In this document: piece by piece, positions 32,137-56,327 of the stretch | Layout: the number at the start of each line of letters is the position of its first letter | How positions within the stretch are numbered: position 1 is the stretch's first letter | Assembly: GCA_027012135.1 (NCBI GenBank) | Contig: JALUZF010000197.1 | Span: 1 to 57,076 of the forward strand | Source: Gammaproteobacteria bacterium | Lineage (GTDB): Bacteria; Pseudomonadota; Gammaproteobacteria; GRL18 | Length of the DNA: 57,076 bases | Direction of reading: 5' to 3' | Program-made: the position numbers and the translations under genes | The notes under the pieces: model-generated | The model's database searches: none | What the model was told of the DNA's origin: nothing | The model's input: only the letters and a program-made list of their open reading frames with translations

Positions 32137-34395
32137 ATGAATATAAAAAAATTAGTTTTTGAGAAAATGGATGGTATCTGGGAAACTATTAAGGATATCA
32201 GCCTGATCCTCAAACCGTGCCGTTTCAGTATCATTCTTTTAATTGCTATACTGGCCTTTTTTATCCTCGCCGATCAGGGGCAGGATGTTTTACGGGCCCT
32301 GACTGAACAGGAAAACACCTCTTATAGCCGGGTTTTCTGGTTTTACCTGGCATTATTTTTATGGGCGATTAATACCTGGTACTGGGCCAGGGTTATGCTC
32401 AGATTTAATTTTGATAAGCATGATAAATACACAGCAGACTGTCATCCTTTAAGTGAGCAACAGAAACAGCGTCGAATCCGGATCCGCCAGTATCTGCCCC
32501 GGTTTTTAGGTACTTTTGCTTTTCTGCTCACCGCTTATGCTTTTTATAAAACCGGTTCGGATCAATCAACTATTGCCGGTTCAGGTGCCTGGTTATATTT
32601 TACTGCGGCCTGTATGGTATTTGCAGGACTGTTTCTTTATCTGACCACTAAGCGGCGGCAATGGATTAATAAGCTCCTGGGGCAGGCCAGTGCAAAGTCA
32701 CTGGAACAAAGATCCTGGCTAAAAAACCTGGCTCATGACTTTAACGAACTGTCTTCAGAGCAGGTTTATGGTGCAAATTATAATACTCTGGCCGATGTTC
32801 CGGTTTTAACCTGGATTATGCTGGGCATTCTGGCTGCTGTCAGTATTATTCTGTTTGTCTTATTTACTGCTTTACCCAATTCAGCTGTAGTGCTGGGAAC
32901 GGCGGCCATTTTCCTGACTGCTGCTGCAAGCTGGGTGTGTTTTGGCAGTGTTCTGGTGTATGCAGGCAGTAAATACAGTTTTCCTGTGATCACCTTGTTG
33001 ATTATTGCTGCGGTGAGTTTCAGTCTTAGGAATAATAATCATGATATCCGTTACCTTGAAAACCAGGAATTTGCCAGCCGGACGGGTCTGAATGACTATT
33101 CTAAACAATGGTTTATCGGGCTGAATCAGGAAAGTGGACAGAAAGTCCCTTATTTTATTATTGCTGCTGAAGGCGGTGGGATCCGGGCCGCTTACTGGAC
33201 TGCACTGGTTCTGTCTAAGTTTCAGGACAGCAATGCTGACTTTTCCAGGCATGTTCTGGCTCTTAGTGGCGTTTCTGGCGGCAGCCTGGGAGCGGCTGTA
33301 TTTGCCGCAGCACTGCATGAGCAGGTTCAGCAGGGTGCATTTAGCTCTAATGCAGTTAATAAAGGCCTTAAATGTCAGTTAAAGGATAGAGACAGTATCA
33401 CAGAAGCTTCCGTCCAGGAGTGTACCAGCGCTGTACTGGCGAATGACTTTTTAAGTCCGGCGGTGGCCTTTATGCTCTATCCTGATCTGGTGCAGCGGTT
33501 TTTACCGATACCGATTCCTTCTTTTGATCGTTCCAGGGCACTGGAACAGTCCTGGGAGGCGGCCTGGGCCAATGTATTCCCAGCTCAAAACAACAGGCAG
33601 AGCAATTTATTTGCAGGCGATTTTTTTGAACTGTGGAATATTAAAGAAGATAATAAATACATTATCCCCAATCTCTTTTTAAATTCAACCTGGGTTGAAA
33701 CCGGTAAACGGGTTATCAGCAGTAATCTGCTTATTGATCACCGACAGTTTTTTGATGCGGTTGATTTTTTTGATGCTTTAAATAGAGATGTTCGCCTCAG
33801 TACTGCAGTACATAATAGCGCCCGTTTTACTTATGTCAGTCCGGCAGGGCGTCTGCACCCACCGAAAAAAACGGTCTGGGGGCATCTGGTTGACGGTGGT
33901 TACTTTGAAAATTCCGGAGCAACCACGGCTTTTAATATTTTATTATCTATAAACAAACATCTTAACAATACAGAAAAGTATATACCGGTAGTAATCGTTA
34001 TTACTAATGATCCGGCTGTGAAACAACCCTGTGACAATACAGAAAACGCTCAGGATACCTCAGAAAATGACTGCCCCAAACAGGAATTTATGAACGAAGT
34101 TTATTCTCCCGTGGCCACCATGCTCAATACCCGTGGTGCCCGCGGCAGTTATGCCCGTGATGAGATTAAAAAATATGCTCAGAATCTGGGTGGTTTGTAT
34201 ATGGAAGCGGGGCTGTGTGGAGACAAGGGACCTCTGCCTTTGGGCTGGACTCTGTCGGATGCGGCGAAAAACAATATGGAACAGCAGTTAAAGGCTTATT
34301 TTCAGAGTTTTAAACAGCCGGGAGAAAACTTTAACTCATTGAATCTTAATCACTTATCAAAGCTTAAGGCTATTTTAAAACAGGCTTGTATTTAG
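32137..34395 (+). CDS. membrane-anchored patatin-like phospholipase
   Basis: The 752-residue protein has an N-terminal membrane region with about six to seven hydrophobic helices (roughly 31-47, 68-88, 120-138, 150-170, 222-245, 250-272, 276-297). A patatin-like hydrolase domain follows. Its oxyanion motif EGGGIRA lies at 345-351, nucleophile Ser380 in GVSGGS, and the catalytic-dyad Asp586 in VDGGYFENSG. Patatin domains hydrolyse acyl esters of lipids, so membrane lipid turnover is likely; the substrate is unknown. A Cys-rich loop is present (about 413-430). The multi-helix N-terminal half is unusual compared with soluble bacterial patatins. No partner gene is evident. Confidence 0.85.
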   Translation: MNIKKLVFEKMDGIWETIKDISLILKPCRFSIILLIAILAFFILADQGQDVLRALTEQENTSYSRVFWFYLALFLWAINTWYWARVMLRFNFDKHDKYTADCHPLSEQQKQRRIRIRQYLPRFLGTFAFLLTAYAFYKTGSDQSTIAGSGAWLYFTAACMVFAGLFLYLTTKRRQWINKLLGQASAKSLEQRSWLKNLAHDFNELSSEQVYGANYNTLADVPVLTWIMLGILAAVSIILFVLFTALPNSAVVLGTAAIFLTAAASWVCFGSVLVYAGSKYSFPVITLLIIAAVSFSLRNNNHDIRYLENQEFASRTGLNDYSKQWFIGLNQESGQKVPYFIIAAEGGGIRAAYWTALVLSKFQDSNADFSRHVLALSGVSGGSLGAAVFAAALHEQVQQGAFSSNAVNKGLKCQLKDRDSITEASVQECTSAVLANDFLSPAVAFMLYPDLVQRFLPIPIPSFDRSRALEQSWEAAWANVFPAQNNRQSNLFAGDFFELWNIKEDNKYIIPNLFLNSTWVETGKRVISSNLLIDHRQFFDAVDFFDALNRDVRLSTAVHNSARFTYVSPAGRLHPPKKTVWGHLVDGGYFENSGATTAFNILLSINKHLNNTEKYIPVVIVITNDPAVKQPCDNTENAQDTSENDCPKQEFMNEVYSPVATMLNTRGARGSYARDEIKKYAQNLGGLYMEAGLCGDKGPLPLGWTLSDAAKNNMEQQLKAYFQSFKQPGENFNSLNLNHLSKLKAILKQACI

Positions 34396-37773: not shown

Positions 37774-38844
37774 CTAGCCAGCCGGGATAGTGATCAGAGG
37801 CAGTCCTTCCTTCCCACCGGTTTCCGTTAGAGAAAAGATAATCATTAAAAAACCAAAAGTGCGTTTGGATTTAAAATCCCGGTCATCAATCCAGTACCAG
37901 TAATCACGATATTGTATGGCGGTAAAACTGTCTTCTGGTTTTTCCTTGCTGTGTCTTATGTTAATCAGGTTCCAGTCTTTATTGTCAGAATGACGAATCA
38001 GTCGAGATGGCGGAGTACGTCCTTCCTGTATATGTTCCTGAGGTACATCCACATAAGTGGCCAGGTTGATCATTATCTGCAGCAGGGAATTGGTCATCAT
38101 GGCAATTTCATGATCATCTTTGGGTACTGGTCCGTAGGTAACTTTAACGGAACTGGCCTTAGGGTTGAGACCCAGCAGGCGATTTACTTCTCGACGTTTG
38201 GCAACAATATCCGGGCTGATGTTTTTGTCATGGAAGAAAATGACTGTGGAATCACCGCCGGTCCTGCTTTTTATCAGGCGCATACCCACAGCACCGGATT
38301 TCTGAATATCTCTTAACAGGCTGACCACCCGGTAGTATTCATCATCACCTTTGCGCTGGTTGACGCCTGCTGTGATCTGGCTCTGCAGGCCGTTAATTGA
38401 GCGGGTTGTAAGAGGAAAAATCAGATCCACCGGCCAGCCGGACTGCATTAAAAATAAAATGGCACGGGGCGGAATAGGGGTCATAAAACTTTTATTAAAA
38501 TGACTGCCGGTGATTGGCTGGTAGGTAATGGTTGGGCGGTCAGAAAACTTGCCGGTACCCCCGACACTAAAAATATCACTGGCGGTTTGTCCGGAATGAA
38601 TACCGCTCATATTGACAGAGCTTTCCAGGGTATAACCACTGACAATTGAGGTGACTTCAACAAACAGCGGCATATCGGCATAGCGCAGTTTAACAATATT
38701 CAGTAAGGTCTGTTCTTTCCAGGAATCGGCAATGGCGGTATTGTAATCAAAACGATCGCGGGGGATAGTCTGTGGGCCGATATGGGTACAGGCATTTAGA
38801 AACACAGTGGACAATACAATAATGAACAGTAATCGTTTTGACAC
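37774..38844 (-). CDS. lipoprotein of unknown function
   Basis: The 356-residue product has a lipoprotein signal peptide with lipobox LNAC, so Cys19 would be acylated. No Asp follows the Cys, so outer-membrane sorting is expected by the E. coli rule. The mature part has RDRFDYNTAIADSWKEQTLL, NIVKLRYADMPLFVEV and a C-terminal RDYWYWIDDRDFKSKRTFGFL block, which look like a conserved domain. I do not recognise a named family. It is monocistronic, convergent with thpR, and divergent from the next hypothetical gene with 96 bases between starts. Confidence 0.8.
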   Translation of the reverse strand: MSKRLLFIIVLSTVFLNACTHIGPQTIPRDRFDYNTAIADSWKEQTLLNIVKLRYADMPLFVEVTSIVSGYTLESSVNMSGIHSGQTASDIFSVGGTGKFSDRPTITYQPITGSHFNKSFMTPIPPRAILFLMQSGWPVDLIFPLTTRSINGLQSQITAGVNQRKGDDEYYRVVSLLRDIQKSGAVGMRLIKSRTGGDSTVIFFHDKNISPDIVAKRREVNRLLGLNPKASSVKVTYGPVPKDDHEIAMMTNSLLQIMINLATYVDVPQEHIQEGRTPPSRLIRHSDNKDWNLINIRHSKEKPEDSFTAIQYRDYWYWIDDRDFKSKRTFGFLMIIFSLTETGGKEGLPLITIPAG

Positions 38845-38940: not shown

Positions 38941-40008
38941 GTGGACAGCAATATCGCTCAGCAATTATGGAATACCAATAAAGAAATCAGTATAGCCAAA
39001 GATCAGGAAAAGAAAGAAGGCCTGTTTCTAAGAGAGCGCTGGGAATCCGAACTGGATAAAAACATTGATGCCGTGTTTGATAAACTGTTTGTTTTTTATG
39101 AACATACCATTATCGACAAGGCGCGTATTGTTTTTGGCTCTGACCTGATTGAAGTGCGTTATTCCAATAATCCTTTTTGTCCCAAAGCTTATGTACTGGA
39201 TGAGTTTCTTGCACTGCCTGAAGAAAATCGGTTTGATTTTGATATCTGTTCAGGGATAAATATTGAGGATATTGAAAAGTCCTTACTGGCGATGAAGGAG
39301 CTGCGTTTTAAAGATATAGAATATCTGGAAGCTTTTCGTATCAACAGTTATTCCGGTAATATCTGGGCGTATTTTTCCTCCAGTTCCTCTTTAATCACCG
39401 ATTACCGGTATTTTCTGGAGTATCAGAAAATTCGCTCTGATCCGGATATCAGTCATGATCAGGCCCTGCAGAAAATGAATTTCACCAGCAGTTTTTTTCG
39501 CGGTGACAAGGAGTTTTTTGATAAACGCCTTAAAACTCACCGTCAGGAAAGCGAAACCGATCAGCAGATCGACCAGATGATAGCCACAGTACTGAAGCTG
39601 TTTAAAGAAAATAAAATTTTTGAAATCCAGGTCTACCTTGGCTCAGGAGTGATCCGGGTAATTACCCCCGAAGAACCTTATACCACCTATGCCTTTAATG
39701 GTGTAGATGAACTTAAACTGGCGGCAAAATACTATAAAAATACCCCGATGACGCTGGAACAGTCCTTAAAAAACAAAAACCTTAACCGGCCTAACCTGAG
39801 AATGAACCGCAACCTGGTCAATCAGGCATTTATGGCGGCTAAAAAATATCGCCTGATAGATGAAAGTCTGTATCTGAGAGTATTTTATATTGATTTTATG
39901 TACAATCAGGTACTGACCTCCTTTTCCTGCGGCGGCACCCGCTATCAGAAGGCTGAAAAATTTATTGAAGATTATTATCGGTATTTTGAAAGTAAACAAT
40001 TAACTTAA
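38941..40008 (+). CDS. hypothetical protein
   Basis: This 355-residue cytoplasmic-looking protein starts with GTG at 38941, preceded by GGAG about seven bases upstream. It is rich in charged and aromatic residues with no signal peptide or membrane helix. Two halves show similar short segments, DKARIVFGSDLIEVRYSN near residue 58 and IQVYLGSGVIRVITPEEPY near residue 233, so an internal domain duplication is possible. The C-terminal SCGGTRYQKAEKFIEDYYRYFES is distinctive. I recognise no family. A lipoprotein gene follows after 13 bases, so the two may be co-expressed. Confidence 0.7.
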   Translation: MDSNIAQQLWNTNKEISIAKDQEKKEGLFLRERWESELDKNIDAVFDKLFVFYEHTIIDKARIVFGSDLIEVRYSNNPFCPKAYVLDEFLALPEENRFDFDICSGINIEDIEKSLLAMKELRFKDIEYLEAFRINSYSGNIWAYFSSSSSLITDYRYFLEYQKIRSDPDISHDQALQKMNFTSSFFRGDKEFFDKRLKTHRQESETDQQIDQMIATVLKLFKENKIFEIQVYLGSGVIRVITPEEPYTTYAFNGVDELKLAAKYYKNTPMTLEQSLKNKNLNRPNLRMNRNLVNQAFMAAKKYRLIDESLYLRVFYIDFMYNQVLTSFSCGGTRYQKAEKFIEDYYRYFESKQLT

Positions 40009-40720: not shown

Positions 40721-40810
40721 AAGCTTTGATCCATTCTAAAATAAAGAAGAATTATGTCATAAAACAGGCTACTATTGATAGATAACATAAAATTTTATTA
40801 CAGGAAATTT

Positions 40811-40948
40811 ATGAAACCAGTAAGCTATTTTTTCCTTGTATTTATTGCTCTTTGTACCCTGTTTGCACAGAGGATTTCTGCAGCAGAAACCACATCAGGC
40901 AGAACGGATAGCGAGATACTTAAGCAATACCGCCAGTGAATAGAACAG
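40811..40948 (+). pseudogene. signal-peptide leader of the dikinase-like gene, cut off by an in-frame TGA
   Basis: The ATG at 40811, with AGGAAAT just upstream, opens a frame encoding a typical signal peptide: Lys, a hydrophobic core YFFLVFIALCTLFA and a cleavage region ISAAE. About 15 more residues end QYRQ before a TGA at 40937-40939. The same frame then continues IEQM into the 934-residue body that starts at ATG 40949. A TGG to TGA change at codon 43 would explain the break, since a Trp fits the QYRQ(W)IEQM context. This appears to be the true 5' end of the next gene. Confidence 0.8.
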
Positions 40949-43753
40949 ATGAAAACGGCACCCAGAGGGCCATTTAAAAATGTCAGATGGTTCTGTAAGG
41001 ACGGTACCATACTGCCGCCTAAAGCTTATGCCTGTAAAGAACATGGGGGCGGCTATCAACACGGTAATTATTCAGATAAAACCAGAACTCTGAGGCAGCA
41101 CGGCTATTATATTGCTAATTTTTTAGCGGGTGTCAATGCCGAAAGCATGATAAAAAAGAACGGTTTTATGGATGAATATAACCAGATCCTGCTGGAAAAA
41201 TTTCTGATCCGAATTGATAACGGCTGGATCTGGCGAAAAGCACAGTTTTATCGCGGTGCGGTTCAGGAAGAAGATGAACGTGAAGGTGCTAGAGTATTAT
41301 TAACCCGTCTGAGCGGCGAAAAAGAGTGGACAGGCCATCGTTACCTGGGACTGCGCACGGGAGTGCAGCTGCTGCCTCAAGGGAAAGATACGGCTTCAGC
41401 TCAGGAGGTCAGACAACTGGCAGCCGCCCTGGCTGAAACAGACAGGGCGTTTATCCCATTAAGAGTCAAGATCCATGGAACCCCTGAAGCCAGTGATGCC
41501 CAGCGGGTCAGAGATTATATCAAAGAGCACAATATTAAGGATGCAGAAAAATACCATATTCTGGCGGATGAAATTGATCAGTTATATAAAGCAGCACCGC
41601 TGGCAGACAGTCTGCGCAAACATGCCGGAATTTTTTCCGCTGCGCCCTGGTTACAGACTTTATTAAATAATGCTGCGGATGAGCTGGATAATAGTCAGCA
41701 GCCTTTGCCGAAGTTTCGCGTTTCTGCAAAATTACTGGCGGATCTGCGTCAGCAGCTGCATAAAGTCCGCAGCAGCAGTGCCCGTTTAAAAGTGCTGGAT
41801 TTAAGTATGGAAATTGAAGCCGTTAACTATAAGAGCGGCACGGAACTGCGTAATCAGCTTGAAAAAATGACTCGTAAGGAAAGAGTAGAACTGCTGGGTA
41901 TTATTGCACAGGCGGCCTATGGAACGGGTGTTATTAATTACAGAAGCTATCAGCAGATTAAAAAATCAGTACAGACTATTAATAAGCCTGAAGTGGATCT
42001 GGGCAGTTATATCAGAGAGTTAAACTATCTGGGCCGGGTGCCGGGCTGGGGTACCCAGGGCATGCGTTTTCAGTTTTATGAATCCATGCTGAAACTGGGA
42101 GAAATAGAACCGCTGACTGTTCACTTTATACAGGATCAATTACGTGGCAGCCCTTTATTATTATTTTCGCAGGTGCTTAATGATCTGAGCATTGATGTTA
42201 ATCATTTAAGCGGTGTTAAACACACATTGTTCGGTAACAAAATCGGGGTTGGCTTTAATGCCCTGAATCCCGGCCTGGTGCGCGGGGTGCTGCATACGGA
42301 TATTACCCTCGATAAAATAGATACTATTAAACCAGACGGTATTTATCTGCTGCCTGAAACTGTATCGGATTTACCGCCGCTGGCCGGTATTATTACAGCG
42401 GGTGAGGGTAATCCTCTGTCTCATGTACAATTGTTAGCCAGAAACCTGGGTATTCCCAATGTCAGTGTGGATGAGTCTCTTATCCCCGAGCTGAAAAAAC
42501 ACAATGGGCAAATAATTGTTATGGCCGTATCACCCTCCGGACTGGTACAGATCAGCGCCGACAGTAAAAAATGGCAGAAATTTTTTAAAGCTAATAAAAA
42601 AAAGTCCGCTGCCACCATCCGCCCCGATCTTGAAAAACTGGATATTAAATTCAGAAAATTCATCAGCCTGGATAAACTCAGAGCCAGTGACTCAGGCCGT
42701 ATAGTCGGCCCTAAAGCCGCAAACCTGGGAGAACTCAAGCATGTTTACCCGGACAAGGTGGCTGATGGTATGGCGATACCCTTTGGTATTTTCCGTCAAC
42801 AGGTGCTGAATAAGCCCTATAAAAACAGTGGTAAAAGCGTTTATGACTGGATGCTGGAACAGTACAGTCATATAAAATCCCTGCACACTAATTCTGCGGA
42901 ACAGCACCGGGTAGCGGAAGCTTTTCGTGCTGAACTGTATCAGATTATTTTAACTATCAAACTGGATAATGATTTTAAAAACAGGCTGAAGCAGAAACTG
43001 GATCAGGTTTTTGGCCGCTCTGATCTGGGTATTTTTGTACGCTCGGACACCAATGTAGAAGATCTGCCCGGCTTTACCGGCGCCGGTTTAAATCTAACCA
43101 TGCCCAATGTGATCGGTTTTGAAAATTTACTAACTGCTATCAGAAAGGTCTGGGCTTCACCCTTTACCCAGCGTGCCTTTGCCTGGCGTCAGTCACATAT
43201 GGATAAACCCGAATATGTTTATCCGTCCATATTACTGCTGCGCTCTGTGCCTAATGAAAAATCAGGCGTCATGGTAACGGAGGATATTGATACCGGTGAC
43301 AGAAATATACTCTCTGTGGCTGTTAATGAAGGTGTGGGTGGCGCTGTTGACGGGCAGTCCGCTGAGTCGTTGAGGATCAATATGCAGGACGGCTCGGTGA
43401 GGGTACTGGCTACCGCTACAGCACCTTATAAAAAGCTGCCCTCACCCAAAGGCGGTATGGTAAAACTGCCGGTCAGCGGCTCTGAAGAAATTCTTAAACC
43501 GGATGAAATTAAACAGTTAATCAGCTTCGCTAAAGGTCTGCCGAAAAAATTCCCATCTATAGTAGATGATCAGGGAAGACCGGCACCTGCTGATGTAGAG
43601 TTCGGTTTCCTGGACGGTAAACTGCATCTGTTTCAGTTACGGCCTTTCCTGCAGAATGATCAGGTTCAGGGGTTGAGCTATCTGGTCAATATGGATAAGG
43701 CACTGCATAAAAATGCCGATACTAAAGTCAATATGCTGGCAAGACCGAAATAG
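40949..43753 (+). CDS. PEP synthase/glucan-water-dikinase-like protein
   Basis: The 934-residue body has an unfamiliar N-terminal half with RGPFKNVRWFCKDG, YACKEHGGGYQHG and helical segments (1-430). A phosphohistidine swivelling domain follows at about 440-530, with the phospho-acceptor candidate His492 in GEGNPLSHVQLLARNLGIPNV. An ATP-grasp PEP/pyruvate-binding domain occupies about 575-925 (GPKAANLGEL, FVRSDTNVEDLPGFTGAGLN, VEFGFLDGKLHLFQLRPF). The His-then-ATP-grasp order is the reverse of PpsA and like plant glucan water dikinase, and the PEP-utilising barrel is missing. The upstream in-frame leader implies export, which is odd for an ATP-using enzyme. It may form a unit with the serine hydrolase starting 10 bases later. 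Substrate is unknown. Confidence 0.82.
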   Translation: MKTAPRGPFKNVRWFCKDGTILPPKAYACKEHGGGYQHGNYSDKTRTLRQHGYYIANFLAGVNAESMIKKNGFMDEYNQILLEKFLIRIDNGWIWRKAQFYRGAVQEEDEREGARVLLTRLSGEKEWTGHRYLGLRTGVQLLPQGKDTASAQEVRQLAAALAETDRAFIPLRVKIHGTPEASDAQRVRDYIKEHNIKDAEKYHILADEIDQLYKAAPLADSLRKHAGIFSAAPWLQTLLNNAADELDNSQQPLPKFRVSAKLLADLRQQLHKVRSSSARLKVLDLSMEIEAVNYKSGTELRNQLEKMTRKERVELLGIIAQAAYGTGVINYRSYQQIKKSVQTINKPEVDLGSYIRELNYLGRVPGWGTQGMRFQFYESMLKLGEIEPLTVHFIQDQLRGSPLLLFSQVLNDLSIDVNHLSGVKHTLFGNKIGVGFNALNPGLVRGVLHTDITLDKIDTIKPDGIYLLPETVSDLPPLAGIITAGEGNPLSHVQLLARNLGIPNVSVDESLIPELKKHNGQIIVMAVSPSGLVQISADSKKWQKFFKANKKKSAATIRPDLEKLDIKFRKFISLDKLRASDSGRIVGPKAANLGELKHVYPDKVADGMAIPFGIFRQQVLNKPYKNSGKSVYDWMLEQYSHIKSLHTNSAEQHRVAEAFRAELYQIILTIKLDNDFKNRLKQKLDQVFGRSDLGIFVRSDTNVEDLPGFTGAGLNLTMPNVIGFENLLTAIRKVWASPFTQRAFAWRQSHMDKPEYVYPSILLLRSVPNEKSGVMVTEDIDTGDRNILSVAVNEGVGGAVDGQSAESLRINMQDGSVRVLATATAPYKKLPSPKGGMVKLPVSGSEEILKPDEIKQLISFAKGLPKKFPSIVDDQGRPAPADVEFGFLDGKLHLFQLRPFLQNDQVQGLSYLVNMDKALHKNADTKVNMLARPK

Positions 43754-43762
43754 AGAGTACTT

Positions 43763-45100
43763 ATGAAAAGAATCATTAAAACAAGAAATTTCCGTTTGTG
43801 TATCAGGCTTTTTACTTCCCCCTTCACACATTTTATCGCACTCAGTTTATTCACTGTCATAGTGTCTTTCCCTGTTATCCTACAGGCCTGGCCCCTGGAT
43901 GGCTATAAAGATACCGGCATTCGCCGTGTAGAAGGTGCACGTCTTGCACATGAGGGTAAAGTTAAAGATTATCTGAAACAGGTTCCCGGTGCTTTATGGC
44001 TGACATCAAAAGTGGACATTCGTCTGCTGGAGCATAAAGATTTAAAAATCCCACCCCCTGATCCTGAGCTTACGGCACAGATTAAGAGCCTGCTTGGCAG
44101 TCATCTTAATGAATACGCCATTGCAGTACTGGATTTAACCGATTTAAACCATCCCCGCTATGCGGTTCATCGTGGAGAACATAAACAGAATGTCGGTAGT
44201 GTCGGCAAACTGGTGGTTATGCTGGGTATCTTTCAGGCACTGGCGGATATCTGGCCGGATGAGGACAGGCGTATTGATGTTCTGAAAAATACCATTGTTA
44301 CAGCCGATGAATTCAGTCAAAGCGATCATCACACTATTCGTATTTTTGACCCGAAGACCAATAAACTGGTTCGTCGTCCCATGCGTATAGGCGATCAGGG
44401 TACTCAATGGGAATTTCTTGACTGGATGATATCCATCAGTTCCAATTCAGCGGCGGCCATGAATCAGCGGCAGGGGATGTTAATGGTGCAATACGGTACC
44501 GATTTTCAGCCGCCGGAAGAAGAAATTAAACGCTTTTTTAAAGAGACTCCCTCAAAAGAAAAAACAGCCATTTATCAGAAAGCCTTCTGGGATCCTATTC
44601 CCCGTAATGGCATGGATCTGGATAAACTTCGTCAGGGCAGCTTTTTAACCCGTGGCGGTAAACGGATGGTTAATGGCGGCGGTAATAGTTATGGGACAGC
44701 CAATGAATTGCTTAAATTTCTGCTTAACATGGAAAAAGGGGAACTGGTGGATGAATTTTCTTCCCGTCAGATGAAGCGTCTGATGTACCTTACAGAACGG
44801 CGTATCCGTTATGCCTCATCCCCGGCACTTAGAAATTCTGCGGTGTATTACAAGTCCGGTTCCCTGTACAAGTGCAAAAAAGAAGAAGGCTTTAAATGCG
44901 GAGCCTATAAGGGCAATGTACGCAATTATATGAACTCGGTTGCCATTGTGGAAAGTCCACCAGAAGAAGGCAGTTTATATTATATGGTGGTGATTATTTC
45001 CAATGTACTGCGTAAAAATTCTGCTGTAGAACACCAGACACTGGGTACCCGAATTCACCGTCTGATGCAAAAAGCCCATCCAGTTAAAACCGCTGAATAG
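43763..45100 (+). CDS. exported serine hydrolase, class A beta-lactamase-like fold
   Basis: The 445-residue product has an N-terminal membrane or signal segment (about 22-42, ending QAWP). The penicillin-interacting fold motifs are present: S-x-x-K as Ser146-Lys149 in NVGSVGKL, S-x-N as Ser226-Asn228 in ISSNSAAAM, and KSG in VYYKSGSLY near residue 370. It is longer than true class A beta-lactamases, with an N-terminal extension of about 100 residues and extra loops (TPSKEKTAIY, CKKEEGFKCG). A periplasmic DD-peptidase-like or other acyl-serine hydrolase role is more likely than resistance. It begins ten bases after the dikinase-like gene and converges with a second such hydrolase. Confidence 0.85.
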   Translation: MKRIIKTRNFRLCIRLFTSPFTHFIALSLFTVIVSFPVILQAWPLDGYKDTGIRRVEGARLAHEGKVKDYLKQVPGALWLTSKVDIRLLEHKDLKIPPPDPELTAQIKSLLGSHLNEYAIAVLDLTDLNHPRYAVHRGEHKQNVGSVGKLVVMLGIFQALADIWPDEDRRIDVLKNTIVTADEFSQSDHHTIRIFDPKTNKLVRRPMRIGDQGTQWEFLDWMISISSNSAAAMNQRQGMLMVQYGTDFQPPEEEIKRFFKETPSKEKTAIYQKAFWDPIPRNGMDLDKLRQGSFLTRGGKRMVNGGGNSYGTANELLKFLLNMEKGELVDEFSSRQMKRLMYLTERRIRYASSPALRNSAVYYKSGSLYKCKKEEGFKCGAYKGNVRNYMNSVAIVESPPEEGSLYYMVVIISNVLRKNSAVEHQTLGTRIHRLMQKAHPVKTAE

Positions 45101-45108
45101 CTTCAGAA

Positions 45109-46002
45109 TTACTGTATAATCAGCTTATGTAAAGGTTTAGCCAGACGGGTGATCCATTGCCCGCCTTTAGCTGAATCAGACAATATCACCACAATGTATT
45201 TTTTATCTCCCTGTTCAATAATCGCACTGTCCGCATGAAAGTTTTTCCAGGAGCCGGACTTGCGGTAAAACTTAATACCGTTGATATCGGCCAGTCCCTT
45301 AACCAGTTTGTGTTTTATACCGGGATTTCCCAGTACTGCTTTCATTTTTTTACTGTATTCCGGGGTCAGTAACTGTCGGGTTTCCAGAAGATAGTAAAAT
45401 CGGGCAGCCTGAATACCGGTTGCACCGTGGGACAGGTTATGCAGTGGATCGCGATGAAAGGCACTGCCTTTAGCATAAGGTTTACCCACCCAGATACCGC
45501 CGTTATGATCCGGTGAATACAGGGAATATTGAGGTAATTGCAGAATTTCCAGTACCCGTTCACCGCCAATCAGATTAAGAACATGGGTAGCCGACTTATT
45601 ATTGGAAAAGCGGATCATTTTAACCAGGTGATCCATTAACTCATCGGTTTCCTGTAAATTACCATTTTGTATTTCCACAAAAGCCGCCAGCAGAATGGCA
45701 ATTTTAGGCAGGCTGGCAGCATAAAACATTTTATTGCCGTTAACATGAGCCAGCCTGGGTTTTAGCGGATTGCTGATATCCACAAGTACTACAGATAAAT
45801 GCTTCTGTTTAACGGGACGCCACAGCCCCAGCTGTTTAATAACAGCTTCCAGCTGTTTCTGCAGTAGGGGATCCTCAGCTGTCCATAATGAGGGGTAGAT
45901 TTGAGCTGTTCCGTCTGTTTGAGAGGAACAATAGGCGGGTAAAGAAAACACGGACAGTAAAGCGGTAAAGTAGAGAGCTGACAATTTAAATTGTTTTACC
46001 AT
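45109..46002 (-). CDS. exported serine hydrolase, class A beta-lactamase-like fold (second)
   Basis: The 297-residue protein has a signal peptide (about 1-24). The serine acylating motifs are intact: S-x-x-K as Ser97-Lys100 (AASLPKIAIL), S-x-N as Ser133-Asn135 (RFSNNKSATH) and KSG in FYRKSGSWKNFHADSAII. It is compact, near class A beta-lactamase size, but the substrate cannot be read from sequence. It shares the fold with the + strand gene at 43763, ending nine bases from it (convergent). Its start overlaps the end of the transporter fusion gene by seven bases, so it is probably co-translated with that gene. Confidence 0.87.
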   Translation of the reverse strand: MVKQFKLSALYFTALLSVFSLPAYCSSQTDGTAQIYPSLWTAEDPLLQKQLEAVIKQLGLWRPVKQKHLSVVLVDISNPLKPRLAHVNGNKMFYAASLPKIAILLAAFVEIQNGNLQETDELMDHLVKMIRFSNNKSATHVLNLIGGERVLEILQLPQYSLYSPDHNGGIWVGKPYAKGSAFHRDPLHNLSHGATGIQAARFYYLLETRQLLTPEYSKKMKAVLGNPGIKHKLVKGLADINGIKFYRKSGSWKNFHADSAIIEQGDKKYIVVILSDSAKGGQWITRLAKPLHKLIIQ

Positions 46003-48182
46003 CCCAGAACATTCCTTTTAATTGACCAGCGGGGTTCTTTTTTTATAGCACCGGCACCGGATACCCAGTAGTGGCTGCTGTAATCTATCAGTCCGCCGGC
46101 CTGTTTGGCTTTAATCCACTGACTCAGGAAAATGGCAAAGTCCTGCTGATTACTGGCAACGGCAAAACTCATGGGAAATTTGAATGTGGACAGTTTAGGC
46201 AGCAGGGCACTGTATTGCGGATGCAGTAAGGTCAGTGCTGAAGCAATTTCAATGGTTTCAATCAGGGCGTCAACTTTATCATCAGGCATTTTGAAAAACT
46301 CATTGTAGTGAGAGAGAGGAATAATTTTTAATTCTATATTGGGCAGCGCTCTCTGTAGTCGTTGGCTTATGGCCTGAACAAATACCGGTTCACCCAGTAC
46401 AGCCAGTTTAAGGACTTTATGTTTGAGTAAACTGTCCCGGCTTGAGAACTCATTGCGGCGATAATCCTTAACCACAGCACTTAATTTTCCCTCAATATAG
46501 GGACTAGATAATTCAGCTTTGAGCAGGTTAAAGGTATCGTAATTAACACCGGGGATAATATCAAGCTGGCCGCTGGCTAAAGCATCTGCAAAATTATTCC
46601 AGTCAAAGGGATAAAATTCAAGGCGGACACCCAGATCTTTGGCCAGATAAAAGAATAATTCAATGTCCATGCCCACCAGTTTTCCCTGATCATTAATATA
46701 GGAGAAGGGGAGTCGATCGGGACGATAACCTACTCTTAACACGCCACGCTCTTTTATAGTCTGGAGCAATTTATTTTCAGGTGCTGGCAGCGTTGCAGTA
46801 GTTTCCGGAAGTTTTTTAAATACCTGGTACGGCACATCGGGCAGAGTATCCGGTAATTGCATATTCATTACCAGATTGTCTTTGTTATAAGTGTTTTTTA
46901 CCGAAAACTGTAGAAAAGTGCGGGTCAGTATTACTGTCAGAAATAAAGCAAGACCCATAATAAATAAATTACGGAGTATTTTTTTACTGTTAAAATGCAA
47001 ATGACCACCCAGACCGGAAGTAATGATCAGGCTGAAAGCAAACAGATTCATGACGCTGACCATGGTGTCAAATTTGCCGTTAATAATAGCGCTGGGTATA
47101 TAAAAATTAAACATATCCTGGGGAATATGAAACAGATCCAGTAAAAAGGGCAATGCCACCTGGGCCTTGGCAAAAAAACTGAAAATACCGGTAACAATCA
47201 GTTCAGGGTATTGAGACAGGTCCAGTTGGGAGCCGGACATCCAGGCGGCAAAAGGGATAAATAAAATAGCCAGCAGCCGTCCGGTATTAGGAAAATTAAA
47301 GGTGACCGGAATAATAACATCAATGACATGCTCGCTTTTTTCTGAACTAAGCTGATATTTTTCGAATATTTCCCGGGAGTTTTCAATCAGCATGGGTAGA
47401 ATAATAAATATATTCTGGGCAATAAAACCAGTTAGCAGGGCGGAACGTGAACAGTAGATAATATCGCTGTATTTAAAGGGGGTAAAGGTACTGATAAGTA
47501 GTGGCAGAATAACAAAGGTCAGTAATATAGAGGCCGCAATATAAATTGCAAAGTAAACCTCAAGATGACTCAGCTGTTCCAGGGTCATTGTTCCGGCTGC
47601 TACGGCAGCAATGGCAAATACCCCGATGGGAGTTAACTGCACCATAAAGGACATCACTTTGCTCAGAACATCACTGAACACTTTAAATGAGTCCACCAGC
47701 AGAGCTTTGTCTTTATGCCCGATGAGCGCAACTCCGACAGCAATACAGAATAGTACCACGGCCGGTACAATACTATTGGCCATGGCATAAAAAGGGTTTT
47801 GTGGAATGTAAATTTCCAGGGGATTAAACGGCTGGGGCGGTTGAGTAATATTGGAACTGTAAAAACTGGCATCCTGCCATTGTGGAAAGGTCAGGGGCAT
47901 GGCAAATATAATTAAGGCTGATATCACCCAGAACAGCAATAATAACAGAGTACCCCGAAGCGCAAGCGATTTGGCCAGTCCCTTATTAAGAGAACCGACG
48001 CCGCTGATTAGAGAAACCACCACATAGGGCAGTACCGCCATCTGCATCAGCCGGATCCAGGCATCTCCCAGCCACTTGATGGATATAATATCCTCACCAA
48101 AAAAAAGTCCGGCAATAATCCCCAGACAAAGGCCGGCAATGATACGGTAGGAAAGCCATTTATTGGAAAAGTATCTGGACAT
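45996..48182 (-). CDS. dicarboxylate/cation-symporter-like protein fused to a solute-binding domain
   Basis: The 728-residue protein has two parts. Residues 1-430 resemble the SDF/DAACS sodium:dicarboxylate symporters with eight or so helices: AWIRLMQMAVLPYVVVSLISGVGSL, VMSFMVQLTPIGVFAIAA, and two re-entrant-loop regions. The canonical NMDGT motif is replaced by NFPNTGR (297-302) and the Ser-rich loop by SRSALLTGFIAQN, so the substrate may differ. Residues 470-700 form a family 3 periplasmic solute-binding domain (GVLRVGYRPDRLPFSYINDQGKLVGMDIELF). The hydrolase gene downstream overlaps it. The fusion could feed ligand to the transporter or sense it. Function is inferred from the domains only. 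Confidence 0.85.
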   Translation of the reverse strand: MSRYFSNKWLSYRIIAGLCLGIIAGLFFGEDIISIKWLGDAWIRLMQMAVLPYVVVSLISGVGSLNKGLAKSLALRGTLLLLLFWVISALIIFAMPLTFPQWQDASFYSSNITQPPQPFNPLEIYIPQNPFYAMANSIVPAVVLFCIAVGVALIGHKDKALLVDSFKVFSDVLSKVMSFMVQLTPIGVFAIAAVAAGTMTLEQLSHLEVYFAIYIAASILLTFVILPLLISTFTPFKYSDIIYCSRSALLTGFIAQNIFIILPMLIENSREIFEKYQLSSEKSEHVIDVIIPVTFNFPNTGRLLAILFIPFAAWMSGSQLDLSQYPELIVTGIFSFFAKAQVALPFLLDLFHIPQDMFNFYIPSAIINGKFDTMVSVMNLFAFSLIITSGLGGHLHFNSKKILRNLFIMGLALFLTVILTRTFLQFSVKNTYNKDNLVMNMQLPDTLPDVPYQVFKKLPETTATLPAPENKLLQTIKERGVLRVGYRPDRLPFSYINDQGKLVGMDIELFFYLAKDLGVRLEFYPFDWNNFADALASGQLDIIPGVNYDTFNLLKAELSSPYIEGKLSAVVKDYRRNEFSSRDSLLKHKVLKLAVLGEPVFVQAISQRLQRALPNIELKIIPLSHYNEFFKMPDDKVDALIETIEIASALTLLHPQYSALLPKLSTFKFPMSFAVASNQQDFAIFLSQWIKAKQAGGLIDYSSHYWVSGAGAIKKEPRWSIKRNVLGW

Positions 48183-50659: not shown

Positions 50660-51307
50660 ATGTCCAGGCCTCTTTCTGAAACACAGGTGAGTTTAACCAT
50701 TAACGGCAGGCCCATTTCGGCACCGCAGTCGCTTTCTGTTATACAGGCGCTCTGGTACGCCGGTTATCCTCGGGTTAAAGGAGTGGGCTGTCTGGAAGGG
50801 GTTTGCGGGTCCTGTCGGGTTATGGTGCGTCGTAAGGGCAGTACTGAACTGAGTATGGAACTGGGCTGTCAGTTATTAATTGAAGAAGGCATGGATGTGT
50901 TCTTTGCTGTTTTTGATACGCCTTCTCACCATCATTATCAACTATCGGATATTCAGTCCTCCTGGAATGTGCAGACTTATTTTCAAAGTATCTTCCCTGA
51001 AGCAGAGCAATGCCGACATTGTCATGGCTGTAATGCAGCCTGTCCACAAGACATTGATGTGGAAACTGCGGTTGATCTGGCTGTAAAAGGTCATTTTAAA
51101 GAATGCGGTGATCTGTTTATAAATTGTGTTATGTGTGATTTATGTATGACCAGTTGCCCTGAGTTTATTGAGCCTAATCATGTGGGGCTGTTTGCCCGTC
51201 GTGTGTCAGCATATTTCGATACCCGTCCCTCCAATCTTATTAATCGCCTGGAAGCTATTCGCAGTGGCCAGATGCAGGTGATTACAGATGATGAGGAAAA
51301 TGATTAA
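50660..51307 (+). CDS. iron-sulfur subunit of a fumarate reductase-like complex
   Basis: The 215-residue protein has a 2Fe-2S ferredoxin-like domain with Cys44, 49, 52 and 70 (GCLEGVCGSC, LGC). Two 4Fe-4S motifs follow, Cys118/121/124/128 (CRHCHGCNAACP) and Cys156/159/162/166 (CVMCDLCMTSCP). It therefore resembles SdhB/FrdB but with two Cx2Cx2Cx3C clusters and no CCG domains or quinone-site residues. It starts the five-gene cluster; its TAA overlaps the flavoprotein ATG by one base. I infer that it carries electrons between the NuoF-like and flavin subunits. Confidence 0.85.
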   Translation: MSRPLSETQVSLTINGRPISAPQSLSVIQALWYAGYPRVKGVGCLEGVCGSCRVMVRRKGSTELSMELGCQLLIEEGMDVFFAVFDTPSHHHYQLSDIQSSWNVQTYFQSIFPEAEQCRHCHGCNAACPQDIDVETAVDLAVKGHFKECGDLFINCVMCDLCMTSCPEFIEPNHVGLFARRVSAYFDTRPSNLINRLEAIRSGQMQVITDDEEND

Positions 51308-52959
51308 TGAGGTCTTCTTCTAATATGAGCGATCATTCAGGACTTACTTATACGCAGGCTCTGAATAATTATCTTCAGCTCAAGGAATTTCCTGCCCGTG
51401 AACTGGATATGGATGAGCAGCAATTGCTGAACACCTTTCATCCTGATTACCGCTCTGAAACTATTACCACTTTAAACGTTGGCCCTAATAAGGGAGAACG
51501 CTGTCATACTCAACTGGCTGAATTACTGCAGGCTGACTCTCGTATTGACGCCTCTGATCTGGCTGGTGTTCGTATTGAAGAAACTGATGTGCTGGTTATT
51601 GGCGGTGGTGGAGCTGGTTGTGCTGCGGCACTGACGGCAGCTGAATCCGGTGCCAGGGTGATTCTGGCCACCAAACTGCGTCTGGGTGACAGCAATACCA
51701 TTATGGCTGAAGGTGGTATTCAGGCTTCGGTACAGAAGCAGGATACTTTACAGGCGCATTATAATGATACCTGGAAAGCCGGTTATAAACTGGCGGACAA
51801 AACCCTGGTTAAACAACTGGTCACCGATGGCCCTGAAACCATACGCTGGCTGATCCAGCAGGGTATGCAGTTTGACCTGGATTCAGCTGGTGATCTGCTG
51901 ACCCGCAGAGCCGGCGGTACATCTGCCAGCCGGGTGGTGCATTTTCGTGATTATACCGGCCTGGAAATGATGCGTGTCCTGCGTGAATCGGTGTATAACC
52001 ATGCGGCTATTGAGGTGCGTAATTATGCACCGGCAGTGGAACTGCTCAGTAATGAGTCCGGTCATTGTGCTGGAGCCATACTGTCTTCTCTGGAAGATTC
52101 CCATTTTCTTCAGATAAAAGCACGCACCGTAATAATCGCCACCGGCGGTATTGGCCGCCTGCATTTAAATGACTTTCCCACCTCCAACCACTTTGGTGCA
52201 ACCGGTGATGGTCTGGTGCTGGCTTATCGTCTGGGTGCCCGCCTGCGGGATCTGGACTCTTTTCAGTATCATCCTACCGGTGTGGCTTATCCTGTTCACT
52301 TGTCCGGTACACTTATTACGGAAGGTCTGCGTTCTGCCGGAGCCTATATTATTAATGCTCAGGGACAGCGTTTTGTTGATGAACTCAAGCCAAGGGATAT
52401 TGTAGCGGCGGCCATTATCAGGGAGTGCAGGGAAGGCAGGGGAGTGGCAGAGCAGGATTTCAGAGGCGTCTGGCTGGATACCGCCGGTCTGGAAAACCGA
52501 AATCCGGGTATTTTACAGCAGCGTTTTCCCAAACTGGTGCAGCTGGGACTGAAAAGCCGTATTGATATCAGAAAGCACCCCATGTTGATTTATCCTACCC
52601 TGCATTATCAGAATGGCGGAGTAATTATAGATAAAAATGGCCAGTCAACGGTGCCCGGTCTGTATTGTGTGGGTGAAGTCAGCGGCGGTATTCATGGCAG
52701 AAATCGTTTAATGGGCAATGCCCTGCTGGAAATTATCAGTTTCGGCCGCAAAGCGGGTGCCGATGCTGCCCGGCAGAGACAGAACCGGGGTCATAAAAAA
52801 ATCACCCTGGATCACATCAGCCGGCTGCGTAGAGAACTGATGCAGAACCATATGCCCATGCAGTTCAGTTCACCCCTGTTATTTCCGGATTATACCCGTC
52901 GTGCAGAAGCTGATGATGATCCGGAGCAGCCAGATCATCCGGGGATGTTTGATTTATGA
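51307..52959 (+). CDS. fumarate reductase/succinate dehydrogenase-type flavoprotein, soluble form
   Basis: The 550-residue protein has an approximately 92-residue N-terminal extension, then the FAD Rossmann motif GGGGAG (99-104). Active-site segments match the FrdA/SdhA/NadB family: SFQYHPTG, GTLITEGLRSAGA, KPRDIVAAAI and TLHYQNGG, with GNALLEIISFGR near the end. The site of covalent flavinylation is Asn130 (SNTIMAEGG) rather than His, so FAD should be bound noncovalently, as in soluble fumarate reductases and L-aspartate oxidase. The gene overlaps its iron-sulfur partner upstream, and its TGA overlaps the NuoF-like ATG by four bases. Direction in vivo is not given by sequence. Confidence 0.88.
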   Translation: MRSSSNMSDHSGLTYTQALNNYLQLKEFPARELDMDEQQLLNTFHPDYRSETITTLNVGPNKGERCHTQLAELLQADSRIDASDLAGVRIEETDVLVIGGGGAGCAAALTAAESGARVILATKLRLGDSNTIMAEGGIQASVQKQDTLQAHYNDTWKAGYKLADKTLVKQLVTDGPETIRWLIQQGMQFDLDSAGDLLTRRAGGTSASRVVHFRDYTGLEMMRVLRESVYNHAAIEVRNYAPAVELLSNESGHCAGAILSSLEDSHFLQIKARTVIIATGGIGRLHLNDFPTSNHFGATGDGLVLAYRLGARLRDLDSFQYHPTGVAYPVHLSGTLITEGLRSAGAYIINAQGQRFVDELKPRDIVAAAIIRECREGRGVAEQDFRGVWLDTAGLENRNPGILQQRFPKLVQLGLKSRIDIRKHPMLIYPTLHYQNGGVIIDKNGQSTVPGLYCVGEVSGGIHGRNRLMGNALLEIISFGRKAGADAARQRQNRGHKKITLDHISRLRRELMQNHMPMQFSSPLLFPDYTRRAEADDDPEQPDHPGMFDL

Positions 52960-54236
52960 ATACGGTATTTAAAAATCATGTCCTGCTGCATCCCAATTCG
53001 CTGGGCAATAACCTCAGCAACTGGCTGAGCAGTTATGGCGGCAGCGGCTTAATAAAAGCTCTGCAGCAGCCGGAGGCTATTATACCCTTGCTGAAGGAAG
53101 CGGGTTTAAGAGGACTGGGCGGCAGCGGTTTTCCGACCTGGAAAAAATGGCAGGCAGTGGCACAGCAGGGCAGTGATACGGACAAATACCTGATCTGCAA
53201 TGGCAATGAAGATGAACCGGGTACCTTTAAAGACGCTTATTTAATGAGCCGCTCGCCTAACCAGGTTATTGAAGGGGCTTTGATCAGTGCCGTGGCTAAC
53301 GGTACTAACCGGATTGTGTTTTATATTAATCCTGAGCAGGATAAAGCTCTGGCCAGTATGCGGGAAGCTGTGGTGCAATGGCAGGCCAGTGAGCTGCTGC
53401 AGCGCACTGAAGCGGTGACAGGTAAGAGCATTGAGTTTCAGGTCATGGCCAGTTCCGGACATTATATTGGCGGGGAAGAAACGGCGGCCATTGAATCAGT
53501 GGAAGGTAAATTTCCTTTTCCACGGGGCAAACCGCCGTATCCGGCGCAATCCGGTGTTAACGGCTGTCCTACTCTGGTCAATAATATTGAAACCCTGGCT
53601 AATATTCCGCATCTGCTGAGAAACGGTGCCCACTGGTTTCAGAAACTGGGTAAAGGCCTTTCATCCGGTACTAAGTTGTACTGCCTCAGTGGTGATGTAT
53701 TATATCCCGGGGTTTATGAACTGCCCATGGGAACCCCCTTATCTGAACTGATTTATATTCATGGCGGCGGCATGCTGCTGGAGAAAAAACTTAAAGCGGT
53801 ATTTACCGGCGGGGTTTCCAGTACTATTTTAACGCCCAAAGATCTGGACGTACCTCTGGACTTTGACTCGGTTCGGATCCGGGGTTCCAGTCTGGGTACC
53901 GGTGCCATGATTGTGGTATCAGAAGGGACGGGTATTGTCAGGCAGGTTACAGAGTACGTTAATTTTTATGCCCATTCTTCCTGCGGACAATGCCCATCCT
54001 GTAAAACCGGTACTTATTATATTTCTCAACTGCTTAACCGCATTGATACCGGTCAGGCCGGAAACCAGGATCTGGATACCCTGATTAACCTGTGTGCCAT
54101 TCTTCCCGGCAGCGGCCGCTGTCATTTACTGGACGGGGCGATTAAAATTGTGGACAGTTCTCTGTTTCATTTTAAGGATGAATATCAGCATTCCTTAAGC
54201 CATTCTTTTAACTCAAAGGCAAAGACTGAACTATGA
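52956..54236 (+). CDS. NuoF-like NADH-binding flavoprotein subunit
   Basis: The 426-residue protein is homologous to the NADH-oxidising 51-kDa subunit of complex I and NAD-linked hydrogenases. The FMN/NADH segments are RGLGGSGFPTWKKW (52-65), CNGNEDEPGTFKD and HYIGGEETAAIESVEGKFPFPR. The cluster Cys motif CGQCPSCKTGT lies near 344-354, with the later Cys in GSGRCHLLDGA, so a 4Fe-4S centre (N3-type) is expected. It is not in a nuo operon. Overlaps of four bases at both ends place it between the fumarate-reductase-like flavoprotein and SucC, so NADH is the likely electron donor or acceptor of this complex. Confidence 0.88.
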   Translation: MNTVFKNHVLLHPNSLGNNLSNWLSSYGGSGLIKALQQPEAIIPLLKEAGLRGLGGSGFPTWKKWQAVAQQGSDTDKYLICNGNEDEPGTFKDAYLMSRSPNQVIEGALISAVANGTNRIVFYINPEQDKALASMREAVVQWQASELLQRTEAVTGKSIEFQVMASSGHYIGGEETAAIESVEGKFPFPRGKPPYPAQSGVNGCPTLVNNIETLANIPHLLRNGAHWFQKLGKGLSSGTKLYCLSGDVLYPGVYELPMGTPLSELIYIHGGGMLLEKKLKAVFTGGVSSTILTPKDLDVPLDFDSVRIRGSSLGTGAMIVVSEGTGIVRQVTEYVNFYAHSSCGQCPSCKTGTYYISQLLNRIDTGQAGNQDLDTLINLCAILPGSGRCHLLDGAIKIVDSSLFHFKDEYQHSLSHSFNSKAKTEL

Positions 54237-55396
54237 ATTTACACGAATATCAGGCCAAAAGTCTGTTTACCGGCTTTGGCATACCGGTGCCGGCCAGTGT
54301 GCCTGTGGGCAGTGCAGAAGAAGCGCTCAGGGCAGCAGAGAATCTCGGCGGTAACAGCTGGATGGTTAAAGCCCAGATCTATGCCGGTTCCAGAGAGTTA
54401 TCAGGCGGGGTAAAACGGGTAAACAGTACTGAAGACCTGACAGCTGTCTGTAATAGCCTGCTGGGTAAAACCCTGGCCACCCCGCAGACAGATGGTGAAC
54501 ACCTGCCGGTTAACCGGGTTTTAATTGAACAGGCAGTCGATATAAAACAGGAAATGTATCTGAGTGCTCTGGTGGACAGAGACAGTGAAACCATCACTTT
54601 TATGGCTTCCACCCAGGGCGGTGTCAATATAGAAGACATTGCAGAAAAAAGTCCGGAAAAAATTATTCATATCCAGGTTAACCCCTGTACCGGTCTGCAG
54701 GCCTATCAATGCCGTCAGGTGGCTTTTGCTCTCGATCTGCAGGGCAGTCATGTTTCAGAACTGACGGATATTATGCTGGGACTGTATGATCTGTTTGTTT
54801 ATAAAGACCTGACCCTGGTTGAAATTAATCCTCTGGTGATCAGTAAGGAAAACACCATTCTGGCTCTGGATGCCAAACTGACTATTGATGATAATGCCTT
54901 ATACCGCCGGCCTGATTTACGGGAAATGCGTGATACCACTCAGGAAAACATCAAGGAGGCCAGGGCGCTGGAATCCGGTATTAACTATATAGCACTGAAC
55001 GGTAATATCGGTTGTATGGTAAATGGGGCAGGTCTTGCTATGGCAACTATGGACTTAATAAAACTTCACGGCGGTGAACCGGCTAATTTTCTGGATGTCA
55101 GCGGCGGTACCACCGCCGAAAAAGTGGCAGAATCTTTTAAACTGATTTTAACGGAGCCGGATGTTAAAGCCATTCTGGTGAATATTTTTGGCGGTATGGT
55201 GCACTGTGACTTAATTGCCGAGGGTATTATTCAGGCCATGCAGGAAGTCAGCGTAGTCATTCCCGTCATTGTTTTTCTGGCCGGAACCAATGCTGCACAG
55301 GGCCTGGATATTCTGGCACAAAGCAGCCTGAATATAGAAACCGCCAGTGATCTGACTGAAGCCGCCCGAAAAGCCGTTGCCTGTGCAGCAACCTGA
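54233..55396 (+). CDS. sucC: succinyl-CoA synthetase subunit beta
   Basis: The 387-residue ATP-grasp subunit matches SucC in length (388 in E. coli). It starts [19 protein letters not shown] and carries [26 protein letters not shown], and a ligase-domain end [29 protein letters not shown] and [17 protein letters not shown]. It activates succinate to succinyl-CoA with ATP and CoA; both directions are possible. The ATG overlaps the NuoF-like TGA. It is followed by sucD after 37 bases. Its location here, away from sucAB, argues for a dedicated role with the reductase cluster. Confidence 0.93.
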
Positions 55397-55433
55397 CTAT
55401 TGGATACCAACACAGAGTCATTCCGAGAAACCA

Positions 55434-56327
55434 ATGAGTATATTAATTAATAAAGATACCCGGGTCATAGTTCAGGGTTTTACCGGCAAGCAGGGCAGTT
55501 TTCATGCCCGGCAGGCCATTGAATACGGCACTCAACTGGTGGGTGGCGTTACGCCTGGTAAGGGCGGACAGGTTCACCTTGAACGACCGGTTTTTAATAC
55601 CGTACAGGATGCCGTTGCTGAAACAGGAGCCGACGCTTCTGTAATTTATGTTCCGGCGGCTATGGCTGCGGATGCCATACTCGAAGCAACAGAAGCCGGG
55701 ATAAGAGTTATTGTCTGTATTACTGAAGGTATTCCAGTACAGGATATGATCCGGGTCAAAGCTCTGCATCGACAGATGGGCGATAATGCCCCGTATTTAA
55801 TTGGTCCCAATTGTCCGGGCATCATTACCCCGGATGAATGTAAAATTGGTATTATGCCTGCTGAGATCCATCTCAGGGGCAGTACCGGTATTATCTCCCG
55901 TTCCGGTACACTGACTTATGAAGCGGTTCGGCAGACCACTGTTGAAGGCCTTGGTCAAAGCACCTGTATCGGTATTGGCGGTGATTTAATTCAGGGAATG
56001 AATTTTATTGACTGTCTGGCCCTGTTTGAACAGGACAGCGAAACTGAGGTCATAATCTTAGTGGGTGAAATAGGTGGCACCAGAGAAGAAACGGCGGCTG
56101 AGTATATCAGAGAGCATGTTACCAAGCCGGTTGTGGCTTATATCGCCGGTATGACAGCACCACATGGTCGCCGTATGGGTCATGCCGGAGCGATTATCTC
56201 AGGCGGTAAAGGTTCTGCTGCAGACAAAGTAATTGCACTGGAAGCTGCTGGAGTGAACGTTGTAGACTCTCCCGCAGAAATGGGCAGTACCGCCAGCAGC
56301 TTACTGGCTAATAGCTGTAACAGATAA
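55434..56327 (+). CDS. sucD: succinyl-CoA synthetase subunit alpha
   Basis: The 297-residue CoA-binding subunit starts at ATG 55434 ([18 protein letters not shown]). A longer open frame begins at 55377 within sucC but adds unconserved residues. Features include [34 protein letters not shown] and the SRSGTLTYE block. The catalytic phospho-histidine region is [18 protein letters not shown], with His in GHAGA. It is the partner of the adjacent sucC product and completes the enzyme; only AT-rich sequence follows for about 100 bases. Confidence 0.94.

Follow-up and report, generated by a model that had tools for sequence, protein, structure and literature searches.

A predicted exported dikinase family co-inherited with an NTT carrier and two putative serine enzymes in free-living Proteobacteria

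A dikinase gene interrupted by one in-frame TGA was identified in a stretch of gammaproteobacterial DNA (the window, 57,076 nucleotides in total), and together with its homologues it defines a family of exported dikinases whose N-terminal domain is unrecognised. Judged from sequence alone, and with no activity or localisation data for any member, we consider it very probable that this family is both exported and catalytically competent. The genes are associated with those of two putative serine enzymes (BLA1 and BLA2) and of a carrier of the NTT family. The features of the locus are listed in Table 1.

Table 1. Features of the dikinase locus in the window; residue numbers count from ATG 40811.
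Feature	Position	Strand	Remarks
Shine-Dalgarno-like AGGAAA ahead of leader ATG	40802..40807	+	sequence upstream of 40811
Predicted signal peptide, dikinase residues 1-24	40811..40882	+	leaders at the same place in 48/48 full-length homologues
In-frame TGA, codon 43	40937..40939	+	nearly invariant Trp position across the dikinase family
Dikinase body (ORF finding)	40949..43753	+	934 aa
N-terminal domain, residues 53-480	40967..42250	+	no Pfam or PDB match; invariant Cys62, Cys75
Phosphohistidine swivelling domain PF00391, residues 514-569	42350..42517	+	catalytic His538 at 42422-42424
ATP-grasp domain PF01326, residues 631-951	42701..43663	+	Lys635, Arg744, Asp928, Glu930, Gln942, Arg944
BLA1, exported Beta-lactamase2 serine enzyme (predicted)	43763..45100	+	S146xxK149, S226xN228, K364SG
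BLA2, second exported Beta-lactamase2 serine enzyme (predicted)	45109..46002	-	S97xxK100, S133xN135, K248SG
SDF symporter fused to type-3 solute-binding domain	45996..48182	-	neighbour in window and two relatives

An earlier sequence-only reading of this DNA had joined the open reading frame to an in-frame upstream leader, and this assignment was confirmed. Reading upstream from the frame leads to ATG 40811 and yields the leader MKPVSYFFLVFIALCTLFAQRISA-AE, which is split from the body by the single TGA only. With this numbering, His492 of the body becomes His538. A Shine-Dalgarno-like sequence precedes ATG 40811 and none was found upstream of 40949; the former is therefore the likely ancestral start, as far as the sequence allows this to be deduced. 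A change of the genetic code, with TGA read as Trp, was ruled out. TGA terminates four of the 29 other genes of the window, and the code is thus ordinary. Since nearly all relatives have Trp at codon 43, the window copy is either recently broken or mis-sequenced. Uninterrupted genes were located in related bacteria, where full-length homologues possess the leader and, with few exceptions, this Trp. Furthermore, no NTT was detected in the assembly of the window's genome. Given this absence and the stop codon, the dikinase system of this particular genome is probably dead or dying.

The leader had been interpreted as a signal peptide, an idea that would have failed if the homologues had lacked it. 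The opposite was observed: in all 48 full-length homologues examined, the corresponding position is taken by a hydrophobic leader. The hydrophobic segment lies 24–39 residues before the first conserved motif, GPF....W[FY]C.DG, and is nearly always preceded by a Lys or an Arg. Note that export leaders were judged by hydropathy and not by SignalP. The best 11-residue Kyte-Doolittle mean was 2.70 for the leaders (n = 48) compared to 1.30 for control stretches (n = 621), and a threshold of 2.2 was reached by 92% of the leaders versus 2.6% of the controls. Because 48 homologues share the leader and relatives almost without exception have Trp at codon 43, the leader of the window dikinase cannot be attributed to chance.

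The swivelling domain precedes the ATP-grasp domain, and a PEP barrel was not found by Pfam in the window protein or in the members checked; on both points the first reading was correct. For the window protein, the Pfam match of the mobile domain of PEP-utilizers had an E-value of 1e-4, just under the cut-off, and that of the PPDK_N ATP-grasp domain an E-value of 3e-26. The mobile domain was matched in 21 of 21 family members checked (best E-value 2.5e-6), all of which contain the His domain followed by the ATP-grasp domain. The first 480 or so residues yielded nothing convincing in Pfam for these 21 members, in agreement with the initial impression that some 430 N-terminal residues match nothing known. 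An alignment of homologues identified two invariant cysteines in this domain, Cys62 and Cys75, which could form a disulphide. Structure prediction, for which the window protein and two relatives served as input, reached a pLDDT of 41 for the whole protein and of 54 for the N-terminal domain. This low-confidence model is rich in helices but does not name a fold, and the best hit of a Foldseek comparison with the PDB had an E-value of 0.7.

The catalytic residues are nearly invariant. His538, Lys635 and Arg744 are each conserved in 40 of 41 aligned homologues; the corresponding numbers are 39/40 for Glu930, 40/40 for Gln942 and 39/40 for Arg944. The spacing of Asp928, Glu930 and Gln942 (and Arg944) is that of the ATP sites in PPDK and rifampin phosphotransferase. 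With the catalytic His and the ATP-grasp residues present in 39–41 of 41 homologues, the family fulfils the criterion for the PPDK/PPS/GWD superfamily. The family is therefore very probably an intact exported dikinase and no dead relic. The sequence-only reading had left two options, an ATP-dependent enzyme outside the cytoplasm or an exported protein that has given up ATP; the conserved residues clearly favour the first over the second.

The same reading had likened the protein to plant glucan water dikinase (GWD). The likeness holds for the domain order: as in GWD/PWD, the phosphohistidine domain is followed by a C-terminal ATP-grasp domain, and the PEP barrel is missing. In addition, an ATP-grasp motif of the type RSDxNxEDLxGxxGAGL is common to both groups. 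In contrast, the family is exported according to its leaders and has an unrelated N-terminal domain. No CBM45 or CBM20 starch-binding domain was matched by Pfam in 21 members, and the GWD phosphohistidine model PF22973 was matched in three of them, with E-values of 0.02–0.1 (best 0.022), below the cut-off. As far as these comparisons go, the resemblance to GWD appears restricted to layout and ATP-grasp motif. The structurally characterised relatives, over the ATP-grasp part of the sequence, are PEP synthase and rifampin phosphotransferase (RPH). The ATP-grasp and His domains of PpsA and PPDK are homologous to those of the dikinase (PDB 8a8e, profile E-value 1.3e-32) and stand in the order ATP-grasp, His and PEP/pyruvate barrel; in the predicted exported family, the order is reversed and the barrel missing. 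All NCBIfam PpsA models scored far below their cut-offs. RPH (PDB 5fbs/5hv1) similarly combines ATP-grasp and His domains with an extra substrate domain, and the E-Q-R spacing is alike; it differs in being cytoplasmic and in its order of ATP-grasp, rifampin and His domains. Membership in RPH was rejected: NF041857 scored 85.5 bits against a cut-off of 999 and matched the ATP-grasp part only. By the tests made, the dikinase is neither GWD nor PpsA nor RPH; it represents a putative branch of its own, an exported one, within the dikinase superfamily.

The dikinase gene is directly followed by BLA1, then by BLA2 on the other strand and, in most relatives, by the NTT carrier. Dikinase and BLA1 often overlap by their stop and start codons. 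Of 35 separate loci flanked by no less than 6.5 kb on either side, 34 contained BLA1, 30 BLA2 and 23 NTT at a distance of up to 8 kb from the dikinase; the next commonest neighbour family occurred in seven loci of the whole locus set. Both BLA proteins carry export leaders, and their SxxK, SxN and KSG motifs are conserved to at least 95% in 48 BLA1 and 46 BLA2 sequences. Judged by these features, both seem to be functional serine enzymes with the beta-lactamase/DD-peptidase fold. Neither matched any NCBIfam beta-lactamase model. The window also contains, at the place occupied by the NTT carrier in many relatives, an SDF (sodium:dicarboxylate) symporter fusion that likewise adjoins the dikinase in L043 (G175) and L076 (G320). 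Its membership in the system is uncertain; one possible role is the uptake of a product set free in the periplasm. A homologue of phosphate-selective porin O/P (PF07396; 48470-49864, - strand) is one gene away from the cassette. Elsewhere in the window, three ORFs of 752, 356 and 355 aa (32137-34395, +; 37774-38844, -; 38941-40008, +) had no Pfam match above the cut-off. A full-length DUF763 protein is encoded at 21659-22867 (-), and genes for a Fer2 protein, a FAD subunit, a Nuo51-like subunit and a two-subunit CoA ligase form a run at 50660-56327 (+).

A profile of 14 linked carriers matched two translocases of the PDB along their length, namely 9j3n (ADP,ATP carrier protein 1; E-value 1e-30) and 9j3j (chloroplastic ADP,ATP carrier 1; E-value 6e-24). 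PF03219 was matched in 12 of 14 members, and the linked carriers share the signature Y-x-P-[VL]-D...K-x-x-ID with ATP/ADP translocases. In a tree, they fall into two well-supported clades, set apart from NTTs of the class that are not linked to the dikinase and from further NTTs encoded in these genomes. As distant relatives of the plastid and chlamydial ATP/ADP translocases, the carriers differ in belonging to free-living hosts, and an outward direction is probable. All 28 genomes with a clade-B NTT (a match of at least 44% identity to one query carrier) possess the dikinase. For the 369 genomes drawn from the class, this NTT is present in 28 of 36 with and in none of 333 without the dikinase (Fisher p of about 1e-35, shared ancestry ignored), and the carriers span many families. 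In several genomes the NTT gene adjoins BLA2 and lies apart from the dikinase, either on a different contig or at a distance of about 30 kb; the carriers of G089, G220 and G323 are placed in this way, away from the dikinase and beside BLA2. The second, distant clade fills the same place in the closest relatives of the window, and its only member outside a dikinase genome is that of G227, whose locus contains the remnant of a deleted dikinase. Altogether, an NTT homologue was detected in 30 of 33 dikinase genomes; those without a detected NTT were the window's genome, G446 and G610, the latter two having divergent dikinases. Part of the genus g352 has only a more distant NTT paralogue. In three loci (L049, L051, L053) a second, longer NTT of 715-820 aa adjoins that of the cassette; such longer proteins, which occur near the dikinase in a few genomes, are probably HEAT-type fusions.

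Homologues of the dikinase occur in four of 24 genomes of the window's order, in 36 of 369 of its class and, mostly within the genus g352, in another class of the phylum. One of the genomes with the gene, G320, is an Arenicellales MAG, which identifies the class as Gammaproteobacteria. Most full-length copies share about 41-70% identity with the window's dikinase or with its near relative. Within the sample set, the genus of the window includes no second genome with the gene, and no relative was found on viral contigs. The full-length gene was likewise not found on plasmids, on which all matches were PEP-synthase-like and confined to the ATP-grasp part. Several copies are damaged: the window and G032 contain a stop codon, the gene of G004 is interrupted near its 3' end by an IS66-type element (L011, 11090-13203), and in G227 (L175, 8147-8701) a deletion has fused a dikinase fragment to BLA1 while the NTT gene downstream is still intact. 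These cases suggest that the bacteria can do without the system in certain circumstances, although a lone stop in a draft assembly may be an error. The idea that dikinase and NTT decay jointly in G032 was weighed and given up: the NTT there extends almost to the contig end, and no stop occurs in its aligned part.

The mechanism proposed here is, like every statement on function in this work, an inference from genomes. Its signal peptide would take the dikinase across the inner membrane. Once outside the cytoplasm, the enzyme would bind ATP with its C-terminal ATP-grasp domain, and this domain would phosphorylate His538 of the swivelling domain, which would carry the phosphate to an acceptor on the helical N-terminal domain, leaving AMP and phosphate. 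The ATP would be supplied by the NTT of the cassette, running outward against a returning nucleotide. The acceptor would be an envelope component on which BLA1 and BLA2 also act; the best candidate is a glycan, for example peptidoglycan or a polysaccharide that has been exported. This last choice is a guess by analogy with the GWD-like layout and from the serine-enzyme partners; the substrate is merely inferred, and we regard a glycan as possible but rather doubtful. AMP or ADP would then return inward. A dikinase releases AMP, and a carrier that exchanges strictly ATP for ADP would not accept it for return. The carrier must therefore tolerate AMP as a substrate, unless AMP is degraded and then salvaged. 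That NTT delivers ATP to the dikinase is deduced without any transport data, and we lean slightly towards it. The scheme as a whole, which combines an exported dikinase, ATP fed by NTT and an envelope acceptor, is the best explanation and seems to us somewhat probable.

Its most serious competitor, which we judge unlikely but worth keeping in mind, accepts a working exported dikinase and lets the NTT carry something else, such as a phosphorylated product to be imported or a salvaged nucleotide, with ATP stemming from lysed neighbours or leakage. Members of the NTT family also transport other nucleotides or NAD, the substrates of characterised NTTs that fall outside the main clade are NAD or purines, and one tested member showed no nucleotide transport (PMC5381601). 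The linked clades are moreover distant from the characterised ATP carriers, and three dikinase genomes lack a detectable NTT. What this explanation leaves unaccounted for is the near-perfect co-occurrence of the carrier with an ATP-requiring enzyme in many families and the presence of two separate NTT clades at the same place; an enzyme living on stray ATP would need no dedicated partner of the NTT family.

The remaining alternatives are weaker. A periplasmic island for drug inactivation, consisting of an RPH-like dikinase and two beta-lactamases, would fit the relatedness of the ATP-grasp domain to that of RPH, the beta-lactamase fold and intact motifs of the partners, and the repeated gene loss, which suggests a conditional function. 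We consider it improbable in view of the deviating domain order, the missing match of BLA1 and BLA2 to NCBIfam beta-lactamase models, and the long co-inheritance as chromosomal loci, with no full-length copy found on a plasmid. Even less likely is an envelope binding or structural protein that no longer uses ATP; the view that the periplasm lacks ATP (PMC7530735) would favour such a role, which is difficult to reconcile with the linked carrier of the ATP/ADP translocase family and with the retention of His538, Lys635, Arg744, Glu930, Gln942 and Arg944 in nearly all of the 41 homologues despite identities of about 41-70%. A cytoplasmic PEP-synthase-like enzyme starting at ATG 40949, from where alone the window ORF is open, can practically be dismissed given the position of the Shine-Dalgarno-like sequence before 40811 and not before 40949, the uninterrupted leaders of full-length homologues, the lack of a PEP barrel and the export leaders of the conserved neighbours.

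No paper on a dikinase/NTT system was found in the open-access literature; subscription papers were outside the scope. ATP is held to be absent from the periplasm (PMC7530735), and what NTT carriers do in free-living bacteria has yet to be settled (PMC5381601). An exported dikinase whose catalytic residues are intact and which is co-inherited with an NTT makes both issues directly testable. We tentatively propose, without yet counting it as probable, that free-living proteobacteria run a periplasmic ATP economy in which NTT exports ATP and the exported dikinase phosphorylates an envelope polymer together with two serine enzymes. ATP may thus be sent outward on purpose, and the system offers a candidate route by which an envelope polymer would be phosphorylated after its export.
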